The position numbers were made by a program, and so were the translations under genes. This document shows, piece by piece, positions 5,026 to 32,671 of a DNA stretch of 50,617 nucleotides (positions within the stretch are counted from its first letter, which is position 1; every line of letters begins with the position of its first letter). The DNA is taken from contig JAHZJL010000115.1 in assembly GCA_022600935.1 (NCBI GenBank), forward strand, positions 1-50,617, in the 5' to 3' direction. The notes below the pieces were generated by a model. It ran no database searches, was not told where the DNA came from, and saw nothing but the letters and a program-made list of their open reading frames with translations. This DNA comes from Gammaproteobacteria bacterium. GTDB lineage: Bacteria > Pseudomonadota > Gammaproteobacteria > Methylococcales > DRLZ01.

Positions 5026-7929
5026 TCAACTCTGGTTTTGATAAGCGTCCATTGGTGCACATGAGCAGTGCAAATGTCTATCCCCATACGCATTATCAAT
5101 GCGAGCGACAGGTGGCCAGTACTTGTCTTCGCGAATATCCTGGAGAGGATAAAATGCCTGTTTCCGTGAGTAGGGAAACGGCCAGAATTCGTCCAGTAAC
5201 AGTTCATGAGTATGAGGCGCATTGACCAATAGATTATTTTTCAGGTCAGCTTCACCGGTTTCTATTGCCTTAATTTCTTCCCGAATAGCAATCAGAGCAT
5301 TACAAAAGCGGTCAATTTCACGCTTGTTTTCGCTCTCAGTCGGTTCGATCATCATGGTTTCAGCAACTGGAAACGAAACCGTTGGCGCATGAAACCCAAA
5401 GTCAATCAGGCGTTTGGCGATATCGTCTACAGTGATTCCTGTGCGCTTTTTAATCTCTCGCAGATCAATGATGCATTCATGAGCAACCATATCATTCTTG
5501 CCTGTATACAATATCGGGTAATATGTTTGAAGGCGTTTGACAATATAGTTGGCATTGAGGATAGCAACCTGGGTGGCGCGTTTCAAACCACTGGCACGCA
5601 TCATGGCAATATATGCCCAGGAAACTGTCAGAATGCTTGCAGAACTCCAGGGTGCTGCAGCTATGGTTCCGATTGTTTTCTGTTTTCCGGCTGCCGGATT
5701 TACACCTTCAACAACCGGGTGATCCGGTAAAAACGGTGCAAGATGGGATTTGACCCCAATCGGACCCATGCCAGGCCCGCCTCCCCCATGTGGAATGCTG
5801 AAGGTTTTGTGCAGGTTAATATGCGCAACATCAGCACCCAGCAAACCCGGCTGACATAAACCAACCAGAGCATTGAAATTTGCTCCATCCAGATACACCT
5901 GTCCACCTGCTTCATGTACCATATCGCAGATGGTACAAAACGCCTCTTCAAATACCCCGTGGGTTGATGGGTACGTGATCATTAATGCCGCAAGATTGCT
6001 GCCAAATTCCAGCAGTTTGTGTTGCAGATCCTCTACACTGATATTACCGCAATCGTCACATGAGACAACGACAACTTGCAATCCGGCCAGGATAGCACTG
6101 GCAGGGTTGGTTCCATGCGCGGAAGCTGGAATCAGGCAGATGTTTCTGTGACCTTGCTGCCTGATCTGATGGAAGCGTTTGATGACCAGTAGTCCGGCAT
6201 ATTCACCTTGTGATCCGGCATTGGGTTGCAACGAGAACGCATTGAATCCGGTCAGACCGCATAACATCACTTCCAGCTCTTCAAACAACTGCTGGTAGCC
6301 TTGCGCCTGTTCCAGAGGAGCAAACGGGTGCATGGCACTGAATTCATATCTGGACAGCGCTTGCAGCTCGGTTGCTGCATTAAGCTTCATGGTACACGAG
6401 CCCAGAGCAATCATGGATCGATCGAGAGCGATATCCCGACGTGCCAGCCAGCGCATATAACGCATCATTTCAGTTTCACAATGATACATTTCAAACACAG
6501 GATGAGTCAGAAACAGACTGGAACGTTTCAATGATTGAGGGATCGTATCGCTGACACGTTGATCCAGTTCACTGAGTTTAAAATCAGTCTGAGAACAAAA
6601 CACTTTCAGCAAAGCGCGGATATCATTACGTCCTGTGGTTTCATCCAGTGCAATCCCCAGCCTGTCGGCATCAACGATGCGTAAATTGATTCCAGCTTCC
6701 CTGGCCTTGGCAGCAATGCGTCTGGCTTGACCCGGCGCGTGAACAGTCAAGGTGTCAAAGAAAATTCGATTTTGAATGGAATACCCAGACTCCTGTAATG
6801 CAAGCGCGGTAATCTGGGTCAAGCGGCGAACCCTGTTTGCAATCAACCTCAAGCCTTTGGCTCCATGATAAATCGCATAAAAACCCGAGATTACTGCCAG
6901 CAAGGCTTGCGATGTGCAAATATTCGATGTCGCCTTATCACGCCGTATATGTTGTTCTCTGGTTTGCAGTGCCATACGAAAAGCGGGTTTGCCAGACTTA
7001 TCTTTGGACAATCCAATGATACGTCCCGGCACAGCACGCTTGTGCCTATCGTGGGTCGCAAAAAATGCTGCATGCGGACCACCATAACCCATCGGTACCC
7101 CAAACCGTTGTGCACTGCCGACAACAATATCTGCACCCTGCTCACCCGGCGGTTTCAGTAACACCAGGCTTAATAAGTCTGCCGCAACTGTTAGGCAAGC
7201 TTGATGCGAATGCAAGCGATCGGCGACTGGTTGCAAGGGGTTGACTTCACCACTGGATCCGGGATATTGAACCAGCGCTCCAAATACAGATTGAGTATCC
7301 AGATCATCGCTCCAGGGATTACCAATGATGATTGTATACCCCAGATTTTCTGCTCGGGTTCTAACTACGGCAATAGTTTGGGGATGGCAATCCTGATCGA
7401 CAAAATACATTGAGGATGATTTGCTGGTGATTCGCTTGCTCATGGTCATGGCTTCAGCAGCAGCTGTCGCTTCATCCAGCATGGATGCATTAGCCAGTTC
7501 CATCGCTGTCAGATCCATAATCATTTGCTGAAAATTACTCAGTGCTTCAAGACGACCCTGGCTGACCTCTGCCTGATAGGGCGTATAAGCGGTATACCAA
7601 CCTGGGTTTTCCAATACATTTCGCTTGATCACCGCTGGCGTAATGGTGTTGTAATACCCCATGCCGATCATGGAGGTGTACACCTTGTTGCGTTTTCTCA
7701 TCTTGCGCATATAGGTGTTGACGGCTTGTTCACTGAAATTCGATTGCAAAGCCGATGACTGCCCACTCAAAATATTGTCAGGGAAGACTGTTTCAATCAG
7801 TTCTTCAAGTGAATCAAGTTCAAGATACTGAAGAGTCTCCTTGATTTGAGCAGAATTGGAACCGATGTGACGACGAATGAAATCGCCTCGCTGTTCAAAT
7901 TCTTCCAGAGATAAATGTGTGTCAGGCAC
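5026..7929 (-). CDS. gcvP: Glycine dehydrogenase (decarboxylating), P-protein
   Basis: This is the pyridoxal-phosphate P-protein of the glycine cleavage system. It decarboxylates glycine and passes the aminomethyl group to lipoyl-GcvH. It is the long single-chain type with both halves fused. The PLP lysine lies in the motif NLHKTFSIPHGGGGPG in the C-terminal half, and the N-terminal half has the typical GMGYYNTITPAVI and YTPYQAEVSQGRLE. The start is set at GTG 7929 (967 residues), because a perfect AGGAGG lies 6 bases upstream (7936-7941). An upstream in-frame ATG at 7956 would place this ribosome site inside the coding region and has none of its own. gcvT lies 119 bases upstream on the same strand. 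gcvH, usually between or next to them, is absent from the window. Confidence 0.95.
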   Translation of the reverse strand: MPDTHLSLEEFEQRGDFIRRHIGSNSAQIKETLQYLELDSLEELIETVFPDNILSGQSSALQSNFSEQAVNTYMRKMRKRNKVYTSMIGMGYYNTITPAVIKRNVLENPGWYTAYTPYQAEVSQGRLEALSNFQQMIMDLTAMELANASMLDEATAAAEAMTMSKRITSKSSSMYFVDQDCHPQTIAVVRTRAENLGYTIIIGNPWSDDLDTQSVFGALVQYPGSSGEVNPLQPVADRLHSHQACLTVAADLLSLVLLKPPGEQGADIVVGSAQRFGVPMGYGGPHAAFFATHDRHKRAVPGRIIGLSKDKSGKPAFRMALQTREQHIRRDKATSNICTSQALLAVISGFYAIYHGAKGLRLIANRVRRLTQITALALQESGYSIQNRIFFDTLTVHAPGQARRIAAKAREAGINLRIVDADRLGIALDETTGRNDIRALLKVFCSQTDFKLSELDQRVSDTIPQSLKRSSLFLTHPVFEMYHCETEMMRYMRWLARRDIALDRSMIALGSCTMKLNAATELQALSRYEFSAMHPFAPLEQAQGYQQLFEELEVMLCGLTGFNAFSLQPNAGSQGEYAGLLVIKRFHQIRQQGHRNICLIPASAHGTNPASAILAGLQVVVVSCDDCGNISVEDLQHKLLEFGSNLAALMITYPSTHGVFEEAFCTICDMVHEAGGQVYLDGANFNALVGLCQPGLLGADVAHINLHKTFSIPHGGGGPGMGPIGVKSHLAPFLPDHPVVEGVNPAAGKQKTIGTIAAAPWSSASILTVSWAYIAMMRASGLKRATQVAILNANYIVKRLQTYYPILYTGKNDMVAHECIIDLREIKKRTGITVDDIAKRLIDFGFHAPTVSFPVAETMMIEPTESENKREIDRFCNALIAIREEIKAIETGEADLKNNLLVNAPHTHELLLDEFWPFPYSRKQAFYPLQDIREDKYWPPVARIDNAYGDRHLHCSCAPMDAYQNQS

Positions 7930-7935
7930 AACAAC

Positions 7936-7941
7936 CCTCCT
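7936..7941 (-). promoter_or_regulatory. Ribosome binding site deciding the gcvP start
   Basis: AGGAGG on the minus strand is followed after 6 bases by GTG (7929). It lies within the longer ORF that begins at ATG 7956 and argues for the shorter GTG-started protein. Confidence 0.7.
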
Positions 7942-8048
7942 GAATTGAAAATTCATGCATTTACAATCATCCGATTGAGCTGATAATCATGACACTGATT
8001 ATTTTACTGTTGTCATTAAAAAACAAATAACTGGTTAAGGGTTAAGCA

Positions 8049-9170
8049 CTAAGACCGATAATACCGGTGAGACACAAACGGCATAGGCGTGACTTGGGTT
8101 TCGATCGCACGTCCTCTGGTCTTGGCAACCAGCACAGAACCTGTTTCTGTATAGTCTTGTTTGACATAAGCCATTGCGATAGGTTTACCAAGGCTTGGCG
8201 CATACCCGCCACTGGTGACTACACCAGCAAGTTTCTCGTGATCATCATAGAGCTCTGTTCCTGCTCGAACTGAAATACGTCCGCTTGCGATCAATCCAAT
8301 TCTCTGCCGCTCAGTTCCATTTTGAATGTGCTCAAGAATCAATCGGTGTCCGGGAAACTTTGGTCGCTTGCCGTTGTTTTTTAGATAGTTTCGATCAATC
8401 ACCCAGCTTAACCCGGCTTCTTCTGGTGTTGTCGATGTATCGATATCCTGTCCGTATAAACAGAGTCCGGCTTCAAGCCTGAGTGTATCTCTGGCGCCCA
8501 GACCAATCGGCAAAACATCTGGATGATTGAGCAGCAGACTGGCTAATTGTTGAACCTGGCCACGATGAACTGAAATTTCGAAACCATCTTCTCCGGTATA
8601 CCCACATCGACTTAGCCGACAGGGAATATCTGCAAGTTCTACTGCTCTGACAGTCATAAATGCAATGTCATCAAGCCCGTCGCTGACAAATGACTGCATT
8701 ACCGTTGCTGCTGCTGGTCCTTGCAATGCAAGCATACATTCTTGATTGAGGAGTTCAGTTTGAATATTATCAGCGATATGTCTGCAAATATACTCATAAA
8801 CCTGATATTTATTTGACGCATTGACAACTAGAATCCACTGGTTATTAATGCGGCTGATGATTAAATCATCAATAATGCCACCTGACTGATTGGTGAGAAC
8901 TGTATAGCGTAGACTGTTATTATTTAAGTCGCTGAGATTTCCAGGAACAAGTGTCTCCAATTCATCATCAATGTGCTGGCCAGATAAGCAGATTTGGCCC
9001 ATATGCGAAATATCAAACAACCCTGCCTTAGAGCGTGTATGCAAATGTTCCTTAATGATTCCGGTTGGGTAGCTGACCGGTAGACAATAGCCACCAAAAC
9101 TGGTCATTTTGGCGTCCAATTCTACATGTAGTGAGTATAGAGGTGTACGTTGTGCAGGTGTTTGATTCAT
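8049..9170 (-). CDS. gcvT: Aminomethyltransferase, glycine cleavage T-protein
   Basis: GcvT transfers the C1 unit from aminomethyl-GcvH to tetrahydrofolate, giving methylene-THF and ammonia. The 373-residue length fits the family. The N-terminus TPLYSLHVELDAKMTSFGGY and the motifs FDISHMGQI, GYTGEDGFEI and LRLEAGLCLYGQDID are characteristic of folate-binding GcvT. It is read ahead of gcvP on the minus strand, probably as a two-gene unit. The methylene-THF it makes is a substrate for the MtdA-like enzyme at 21969-22829. I saw no tandem glycine-riboswitch consensus upstream, only two small hairpins. Confidence 0.95.
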   Translation of the reverse strand: MNQTPAQRTPLYSLHVELDAKMTSFGGYCLPVSYPTGIIKEHLHTRSKAGLFDISHMGQICLSGQHIDDELETLVPGNLSDLNNNSLRYTVLTNQSGGIIDDLIISRINNQWILVVNASNKYQVYEYICRHIADNIQTELLNQECMLALQGPAAATVMQSFVSDGLDDIAFMTVRAVELADIPCRLSRCGYTGEDGFEISVHRGQVQQLASLLLNHPDVLPIGLGARDTLRLEAGLCLYGQDIDTSTTPEEAGLSWVIDRNYLKNNGKRPKFPGHRLILEHIQNGTERQRIGLIASGRISVRAGTELYDDHEKLAGVVTSGGYAPSLGKPIAMAYVKQDYTETGSVLVAKTRGRAIETQVTPMPFVSHRYYRS

Positions 9171-21968: not shown

Positions 21969-22829
21969 TCAACCGGCAAGTTGTTCGGCTATGGAAAAGA
22001 TTTCCTCTATATTCAACAGAGTTTTATTATCGTCAAACAATCGTGAAATACAGGTTCGATGTAAATCGAGTTTCAAGGTACCAAAGCCTATGGCACCCCA
22101 GCAGATTGATTCATGCCGTTGTTCACCGCGATCCATCATATCGATACCTTCAACCCCCAACTCTGGTGTCGCATTTGCGTCCATGATCACTTGAAGTTGC
22201 TTCAATGAGGACCAATGGGATTGTTCCAGCAACCTCACCCCAGCAGCCCCACAGGCAAAGACAATCTGTGCATCCTCAATTGCTGTGGCCCGATCCTGGT
22301 TTGTAGCCGCCTGAACCGGATTCAACTCAACATTATATTGAGACGACATCGCTTTACACGCATCAGTTGCGCGTGACATAGACCGGGAAGTAATTGAAAC
22401 ATCAGCACCAAGCCTGGCCAGTAATACCGCAGCACGCTGCCCAACCGGACCAGTACCGGCCAGTAGCACCGCTTTTTTGCCGGATATAGACGTTGAATTT
22501 TTGAGCCTGGCGACTCCTGCAGCCGCAGTTGTATTACTCCCATTACTATCCAGCATCACCGACACTCTGAAATTTGAGAAAAAAGTCGACATGACCGCAT
22601 CATATACCTCCTGACCCGCTTGAAGACTGCTCCCTCCAACAAAAATAGCGGTGTTTTTCTTGTCTTTAGGTGCACGGGTAAATATTGCACCTTCAACCAG
22701 CTTGACCACAGTATCAGTTGTCACGTTGGCATGACCGATAACATGATCAGCACCGCCATCATATCCAACCACTGTGTCAAACACTGATGGAAACGCATCC
22801 GTATCAAATTGAAAAAGTAGTTTTTTCAT
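21969..22829 (-). CDS. mtdA: NAD(P)-dependent methylene-tetrahydrofolate / methylene-H4MPT dehydrogenase, MtdA type
   Basis: The 286-residue protein closely follows Methylobacterium MtdA: KLLFQFDTDAFPSVFDTVVGYDGGADH at the N-terminus (given here as KLLFQFDTD and VGYDGGADH), then FVGGSSLQAG, MLDSNGSNTTAAAGVA, the dinucleotide-binding loop LAGTGPVGQRAA, and TLKLDLHRTCI near the C-terminus, whose lysine corresponds to the catalytic Lys of MtdA. The family oxidises methylene-H4F or methylene-H4MPT with NADP. The divergent FchA-like neighbour acts on methenyl-H4F, which favours folate as the cofactor here. The ribosome site AAGGA lies 7 bases before ATG. MtdA is typical of serine-cycle methylotrophs and methanotrophs; which C1 source feeds it here cannot be seen. 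Confidence 0.93.
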   Translation of the reverse strand: MKKLLFQFDTDAFPSVFDTVVGYDGGADHVIGHANVTTDTVVKLVEGAIFTRAPKDKKNTAIFVGGSSLQAGQEVYDAVMSTFFSNFRVSVMLDSNGSNTTAAAGVARLKNSTSISGKKAVLLAGTGPVGQRAAVLLARLGADVSITSRSMSRATDACKAMSSQYNVELNPVQAATNQDRATAIEDAQIVFACGAAGVRLLEQSHWSSLKQLQVIMDANATPELGVEGIDMMDRGEQRHESICWGAIGFGTLKLDLHRTCISRLFDDNKTLLNIEEIFSIAEQLAG

Positions 22830-22856
22830 TGTATATCCTTGCCTTTCAGGACAGTG

Positions 22857-22919
22857 TTATAAAATATTTTGATAACAGTTCGCAGTACTCTGCCAGATAT
22901 TTCAATTCAGCGCAGAGTA
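22857..22919. promoter_or_regulatory. Inverted repeats in the mtdA-fchA divergent promoter region
   Basis: TACTCTGC (22886-22893) and GCAGAGTA (22912-22919) are exact reverse complements 18 bases apart. Just left of them lies a near-palindrome centred on AAAATATTTT (22861-22870) flanked by TTAT and GATAA. These lie in the 182-base space between two divergent C1 genes and could be operators for a shared regulator. No regulator gene is adjacent. Confidence 0.5.
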
Positions 22920-23011
22920 TGGATTCGATGCTGTTTAAACTACTTGATCGGTGTACAATGAGCAAGTCAAATCAATCATTCTCCATCATAACCAGCCATA
23001 ATTCACAATCA

Positions 23012-23644
23012 ATGACATCGGAAATCAAGCAACAATCAATTGACGATTTTATCAATCACCTGGCCAGTGGAGACCCGACTCCCGGAGGTGGCAGTGTTTG
23101 TGCAGTGATGGGATCGATGAGTGCCGCTCTGATCAGCATGGTCGCCAATTTAACAATTGGCAAAAAAAAATACCTGTCCGTTGAAACGCATATGCAGGTA
23201 CTACTGGAACAAGCAACTGAATTGAATGAACAACTACTCGATTTATTAAAGGCTGATATCGCTGCATTCAATCAGGTTATGCAAGCATACCGGTTGCCCA
23301 AACAATCTGATGAAGAGAAAAACAAACGCAACACAGAAATTCAATCCGCCTTGATAACAGCCACTGAAGTTCCGCTGTCATGCGCTGAGATTTGCCGAAA
23401 ACTCATTGCGCTATCAAGACAGGCCGCACTTCTCGGGAATACAAATGTAGCCAGTGATGCAGGTGTTGCAGTGGTGGCAGCACAGGCTGCACTGCGTAGT
23501 TCAGCTTTGAATGTTTACGTAAATACCGGGCTCATCAGTCAGCCCGAATTCAAAAAAAGCTGCGAAGCTAAAATAGCCCAATTGCTGGCTGGAGCAGATT
23601 CAGAAACAGAGGAAATTTATGCTCTGGTTAAATCAAAATTGTAA
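23012..23644 (+). CDS. fchA: Methenyltetrahydrofolate cyclohydrolase, FchA type
   Basis: This belongs to the formiminotransferase-cyclodeaminase fold family; stand-alone members of about 208 residues hydrolyse methenyl-H4F to formyl-H4F. The diagnostic motif is GDPTPGGGSVCAVMGSMSAAL near the N-terminus (residues about 18-38), followed by MVANLTIGKKKY. The reading frame is open from 22787, overlapping the divergent mtdA, but the start is placed at ATG 23012 (210 residues) because the family begins a few residues before SIDDFINHLASGDPTPGGGS; ATG 22958 is an alternative. The C-terminus has ASDAGVAVVAAQAALRS, also conserved. With the MtdA-like enzyme it would replace or supplement FolD. Confidence 0.92.
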   Translation: MTSEIKQQSIDDFINHLASGDPTPGGGSVCAVMGSMSAALISMVANLTIGKKKYLSVETHMQVLLEQATELNEQLLDLLKADIAAFNQVMQAYRLPKQSDEEKNKRNTEIQSALITATEVPLSCAEICRKLIALSRQAALLGNTNVASDAGVAVVAAQAALRSSALNVYVNTGLISQPEFKKSCEAKIAQLLAGADSETEEIYALVKSKL

Positions 23645-31588: not shown

Positions 31589-32671
31589 TCAACCATGGGT
31601 TCGCTCAAATTCCCGCATGAACTCAACCAGAGTCTGTACACCTGTCAACGGCATTGCGTTGTATATACTGGCTCTCAACCCACCAACCGCACGATGCCCT
31701 TTTAACCCGTCCAGCCCTGTATCCGCAGCTTCTTTTAAAAACACCGGTTCCAGGTCTGAATCACCCAGTAAAAATGGCACATTCATGCGTGATCGATAAT
31801 TCTGCTCAACCGGATTACTGTAAAAATCACTGCCATCAATGGTCTTGTACAAAGTTTCGGCTTTGGTTTGATTCATTTCGGCAAGCCCACTGACTCCACC
31901 TTGTGACTCAATCCATTCAAGCACAAGATTCAAAATATACCAACTCCAGCTCGGCGGTGTGTTTAACATCGATCCTTGATCAGCGTGTTTTTTGTAATCC
32001 AGCATACTGGGGGTATTCGGTAACGCTTTACCAAGCAAATCATCGCGCACAATGACCAGTGTGATCCCCGCACAACCCATATTTTTTTGCGCTCCAGCAT
32101 AAATCAGACCAAAGCGCGAGACATCAATAGGTCGGGACAACATATTTGACGACATATCACTCACCAATGGTAACCCCTGACTATCAGGTATATATCCGAA
32201 TTCGACACCATGAATAGTTTCATTGTCGGTATAGTGCAAATAAGCGGCATTCGGATCAATCGACCATGCGTCCTGATCGGCGATTGTGTTATACAGGCCA
32301 TCGTCTCTGTCAGTGGCAATCCTGACTTCACAGATATTGCGTGCATCATTGATGGCTTTTTTAGACCAGGCCCCAGTATTACAATACACAGCGGACTTTT
32401 TTTCATGCAACAGATTCATTGGAATCATTGCAAACTGAGTTGTTGCGCCACCTTGTAGAAACAAAACCCGATAATTATCGGGAATATCCAAAAGCGAACG
32501 CATTCGTTGTTCGCTCTGCTCAGCCATTGAAACAAATGCCTTACCCCGATGACTGACTTCCATGACAGATGCACCACAACCGTTCCAGTCCAGCATCTCA
32601 GCCTGGGCTTTTTTGAGTACTGACTCGGCGATTGTCGATGGACCGGCGCTAAAATTATAGATTCTTGCCAC
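31589..32671 (-). CDS. serC: Phosphoserine aminotransferase
   Basis: SerC transaminates 3-phosphohydroxypyruvate in serine synthesis and also acts in pyridoxal phosphate synthesis. The 360-residue protein starts ARIYNFSAGPS as the family does. The PLP lysine is K196 in YAGAQKNMGCAG, and HRGKAF and GGATTQFAMIP are also typical. The start is GTG 32671, just ahead of the conserved N-terminus; an AAGGA lies rather far (12 bases) upstream. It lies between gyrA and pheA, the Pseudomonas order, with about 160 and 190 base gaps. Confidence 0.96.
   Translation of the reverse strand: MARIYNFSAGPSTIAESVLKKAQAEMLDWNGCGASVMEVSHRGKAFVSMAEQSEQRMRSLLDIPDNYRVLFLQGGATTQFAMIPMNLLHEKKSAVYCNTGAWSKKAINDARNICEVRIATDRDDGLYNTIADQDAWSIDPNAAYLHYTDNETIHGVEFGYIPDSQGLPLVSDMSSNMLSRPIDVSRFGLIYAGAQKNMGCAGITLVIVRDDLLGKALPNTPSMLDYKKHADQGSMLNTPPSWSWYILNLVLEWIESQGGVSGLAEMNQTKAETLYKTIDGSDFYSNPVEQNYRSRMNVPFLLGDSDLEPVFLKEAADTGLDGLKGHRAVGGLRASIYNAMPLTGVQTLVEFMREFERTHG

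Follow-up and report, generated by a model that had tools for sequence, protein, structure and literature searches.

A divergent mtdA–fchA gene pair in an uncultured Methylococcales lineage, a probable stand-in for FolD

In Methylobacterium extorquens, MtdA and FchA together interconvert methylene-H4F and formyl-H4F. The same two reactions are carried out by FolD, a bifunctional methylene-H4F dehydrogenase/cyclohydrolase of an unrelated family. Flux through the M. extorquens branch runs towards methylene-H4F (PMC539335, PMC2680597). Among methanotrophs, Methylococcus capsulatus has an mtdA/fch pair (PMC2680597), both genes are on record from further methanotrophs (PMC5604758, PMC12636513), and of the type Ib genomes analysed, every one but that of strain C50C1 has genes for MtdA/Fch and none for FolD (PMC6553558). 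Here we describe such a pair in a 50,617-nucleotide stretch of DNA, hereafter the window, which is contig C225 of a 3.89-Mb bin (G000; 305 contigs, 85% complete, 4% contamination). We read it, with high confidence, as the standard Methylococcales MtdA–FchA pair, standing in for the bifunctional FolD.

The two genes and the region between them

The pair is laid out as follows.

21969–22829, minus strand: mtdA, predicted NADP-dependent methylene-H4F/methylene-H4MPT dehydrogenase, 286 aa (PDB, Pfam, tree and residue evidence)
22830–23011, no strand: divergent intergenic region, 182 bp, partly alignable with the same-genus region
23012–23644, plus strand: fchA, predicted methenyl-H4F cyclohydrolase, 210 aa, start moved from 22787 (NCBIfam, Pfam and PDB evidence)

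The preliminary description of this DNA had called the 286-residue product a clear MtdA homologue, and sequence comparison confirms it as MtdA. The protein matches the structures of M. extorquens MtdA (PDB 6TGE, 1LU9 and 6TLK) over its full length (residues 2–285, E 7e-89), and its domain make-up is that of Mpt_N (106 bits in Pfam) plus an NAD(P)-binding domain. We placed it in a tree of 30 MtdA-like proteins, that of Methylorubrum (Methylobacterium) extorquens AM1 included, and 18 MtdB/MtdC-type paralogues, the latter labelled from similarity and from co-occurrence in the same genomes, with no characterised MtdB among the tips. A shared fold family, and an identity of 29–36% to these paralogues, are what might suggest an H4MPT-only dehydrogenase, MtdB or MtdC, in place of MtdA; the tree, however, splits the paralogues off with support of 100/100 and groups the window protein inside MtdA with the AM1 sequence, while the host bin has two such paralogues of its own on contig C277. 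We therefore give an MtdB or MtdC identity next to no credence, and reject it on the tree placement. The paralogues of the bin lie in tandem (G000:C277:500-6500), as in several relatives, and the second sits on a long branch.

A position outside the MtdA group was what the preliminary description would have counted against the identification; the protein lies inside it, and its nearest partner there comes from a same-genus genome (Crenotrichaceae HyVt-476; support 100/99). By MtdA identity, too, Crenotrichaceae HyVt-476 is the nearest of the named relatives (69%), followed by Methylococcaceae and Methylothermaceae; it is from these relatives that we place the host in the order Methylococcales. 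The window protein keeps 91 of the 96 near-invariant MtdA columns and in this, as in its full-length match, resembles the AM1 enzyme (PDB 1LU9, 6TGE). Among the columns kept is K253 (K255 of AM1 in our own numbering), the lysine of an LKL-HR motif and a residue conserved across MtdA and its paralogues; mutation of the catalytic lysine had been raised as a point against MtdA, and this family-conserved candidate for that residue is intact.

The call of an FchA homologue in the preliminary description also stands. The product passes the NCBIfam FchA equivalog NF045657 barely (275.2 bits where 275 is required), scores 216 bits with Pfam FTCD_C and resembles FchA of M. extorquens (PDB 7VG4) over its full length (E 4e-54). 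Position 22787, from which the gene had been drawn, is just where the first ATG in the open frame falls, and would make fchA overlap mtdA. Because homology begins only some 80 residues into that frame, and because the same-genus homologue begins near the equivalent of 23012, the start most likely lies at about 23012, clear of mtdA; on this comparison of start sites we reject the overlap. Measured against 42 relatives, the window FchA keeps 56 near-invariant columns and departs from them at seven, which in the 210-aa numbering are I14, V29, C30, S35, N72, Q177 and I188; residue 72 has N in place of R, and residue 177 has Q in place of D. At most of the seven it differs from its same-genus homologue as well.

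With the start so revised, the two genes diverge, as the preliminary description had it, across 182 bp (22830–23011), a region that presumably holds the promoters of both; a promoter scan around it returned one site against 1.3 expected, no better than chance. This arrangement differs from the layout in M. extorquens. It agrees with that in Methylococcus capsulatus and other Methylococcales, where the same two genes show the same divergent adjacency and FolD is absent in most; from those pairs the window pair differs by sequence divergence only, its nearest MtdA being 69–70% identical. In families f1–f5, mtdA and fchA are adjacent and divergent in 44 of the 44 genomes that have both on one contig, whereas in family f8 they are non-adjacent in all 30 genomes that have both, and in 18 f8 genomes a formate–H4F ligase gene lies 2.7–5.3 kb from mtdA on the same strand. 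The two layouts, a divergent pair in f1–f5 and separated genes with mtdA near the ligase gene in f8, make a modest, clear-cut contrast in gene order. The divergent layout is also found in metagenome-assembled genomes labelled Legionellales and Thiotrichaceae.

Distribution of the pair and the host bin

The preliminary description had regarded MtdA plus Fch as uncommon in ordinary heterotrophic gammaproteobacteria, and our counts for the class at large agree: an MtdA-grade match (identity of at least 58%) occurs in 28 of 369 evenly drawn genomes of the class, or in about 25 of about 365 outside the order. Inside the order the picture is different. MtdA-grade matches occur in 78 of 101 Methylococcales genomes, and 18 of the 23 genomes that lack one belong to a single family, f6, 17 of whose 18 genomes have FolD. 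The pair is thus unusual for the class and the rule in Methylococcales outside one FolD-bearing family, and for this reason it marks its genome as that of a probable methylotroph, not a strange heterotroph.

FolD is distributed in complementary fashion, being found in 5 of the 78 MtdA-bearing genomes and in 18 of the 23 that lack MtdA (Fisher p 2e-11, kinship ignored). The exceptions G008, G091, G043, G044 and G069 carry FolD alongside MtdA/FchA. A further genome, G056 (f8, 99% complete), has fch, and searches of it found neither an MtdA-grade match nor formate–H4F ligase nor FolD; a single gap in the assembly could account for this, because mtdA and the ligase gene are close neighbours in that family. 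In the window's own bin, a folD search, which the preliminary description had proposed, returned no match above the family cut-off. One PF02882 match, which at 22.6 bits stays under the cut-off and lies in a frame of 481 aa, was considered as FolD and rejected. At 85% completeness and 4% contamination of the bin, this absence is weak taken alone; the same-genus genome and the order carry the case for it. With no FolD found, no route of this kind other than the pair was seen, and the most likely role of the pair would be as the sole interconversion of methylene-H4F and formyl-H4F.

The methylotroph type assigned to the pair in the preliminary description is borne out by the other contigs of the bin, whose gene set makes methylotrophy of the host well supported. 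This one genome carries a formate–H4F ligase gene (C258), two copies of fae (C38 and C123) and a gene for a PQQ methanol dehydrogenase family protein of full length (C66); for assimilation it encodes hexulose-phosphate synthase (C129), which indicates the RuMP route. Searches of the same 85%-complete bin for pmoA and pmoC found neither; the same-genus genome used for comparison (G001) has both on contig C383, and their lack in the window's bin is likely an assembly loss. A pmoB search gave no match anywhere, the positive controls included, and so carries no weight. Genome G004 likewise has methylotrophy genes and no detected pmoA or pmoC.

Fragmentation of the bin, its 4% contamination and the missing pmoA and pmoC might together suggest a non-methylotrophic heterotroph in which the pair is a foreign methylotroph fragment, either misbinned or acquired recently. 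We consider this highly improbable: fae and the genes for methanol dehydrogenase, hexulose-phosphate synthase and formate–H4F ligase lie on other contigs of the bin, and the window MtdA pairs (100/99) with that of a same-genus genome that has the same divergent pair together with pmoA and pmoC. What does not survive is the surprise implied in the preliminary description, which took the host for an ordinary heterotroph, the host being a member of Methylococcales with methylotrophy genes. The finding is real but ordinary; replacement of FolD by MtdA/Fch is already published for the group (PMC6553558), and the window adds one more pair of known type, from an uncultured lineage.

Direction of the branch and the glycine cleavage genes

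As the standard Methylococcales pair, MtdA would interconvert methylene-H4F and methenyl-H4F with NADP, and FchA methenyl-H4F and 10-formyl-H4F. Together with the formate–H4F ligase encoded elsewhere in the genome, the two would make up a complete branch from formate to methylene-H4F, probably running beside RuMP as the main route and formaldehyde oxidation through H4MPT. The pair would be expected to provide biosynthesis with formyl-H4F and methylene-H4F, conditions setting the net direction; judged from the genes, formate could feed the branch towards methylene-H4F, or serine or glycine could feed it in the oxidative direction.

The preliminary description had pointed to glycine as a possible source, citing gcvT–gcvP and serC nearby.

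5026–7956, minus strand: gcvP, glycine dehydrogenase (glycine cleavage; TIGR00461, 1410.6 bits)
8049–9170, minus strand: gcvT, aminomethyltransferase (glycine cleavage; TIGR00528, 331.7 bits, cut-off 235.85)
31589–32671, minus strand: serC, phosphoserine transaminase (NF003764, 538.1 bits)

These genes are real, but their nearness is relative: they lie about 8–14 kb from the pair and do not form one operon with it, gcvT being ~13 kb and gcvP ~14 kb from mtdA, with clpS, clpA, mgtE and others between. In G001 (L127 2522-5757, contig C169), gcvP lies ~1.6 kb past fchA, convergent, with one 435-residue gene between; there it stands beyond fchA, in the window beyond mtdA. Outside this genus, none of the mtdA-bearing loci compared, many of them short, has gcvP near mtdA.

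Oxidation of glycine-derived methylene-H4F to formyl-H4F, as the preliminary description had suggested, is possible as one option. That it is the main work of the pair, fed by glycine cleavage, we regard as unlikely. The presence of gcvT and gcvP in the same window, of GcvH elsewhere in the bin (C23) and of gcvP so close to fchA in the same-genus genome would fit such a role; against it stand the ~13 kb and lack of a shared operon in the window, the lack of gcvP in the other mtdA-bearing loci compared (many of them short), a formate–H4F ligase that offers a direct alternative source of formyl-H4F, and flux in the opposite direction in M. extorquens (PMC539335). The link between glycine and the pair is weak, and glycine is a possible C1 source that is not specially supported. 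A stronger form of the idea, in which the nearby gcv genes and mtdA–fchA make up a functional glycine-to-formyl-H4F module in this Crenotrichaceae-like genus, with FchA altered at its invariant sites to suit, appears very improbable. Near one end of the window, an open frame at 1188–2531 resembles an IS5-type transposase, as judged by reading its sequence only.
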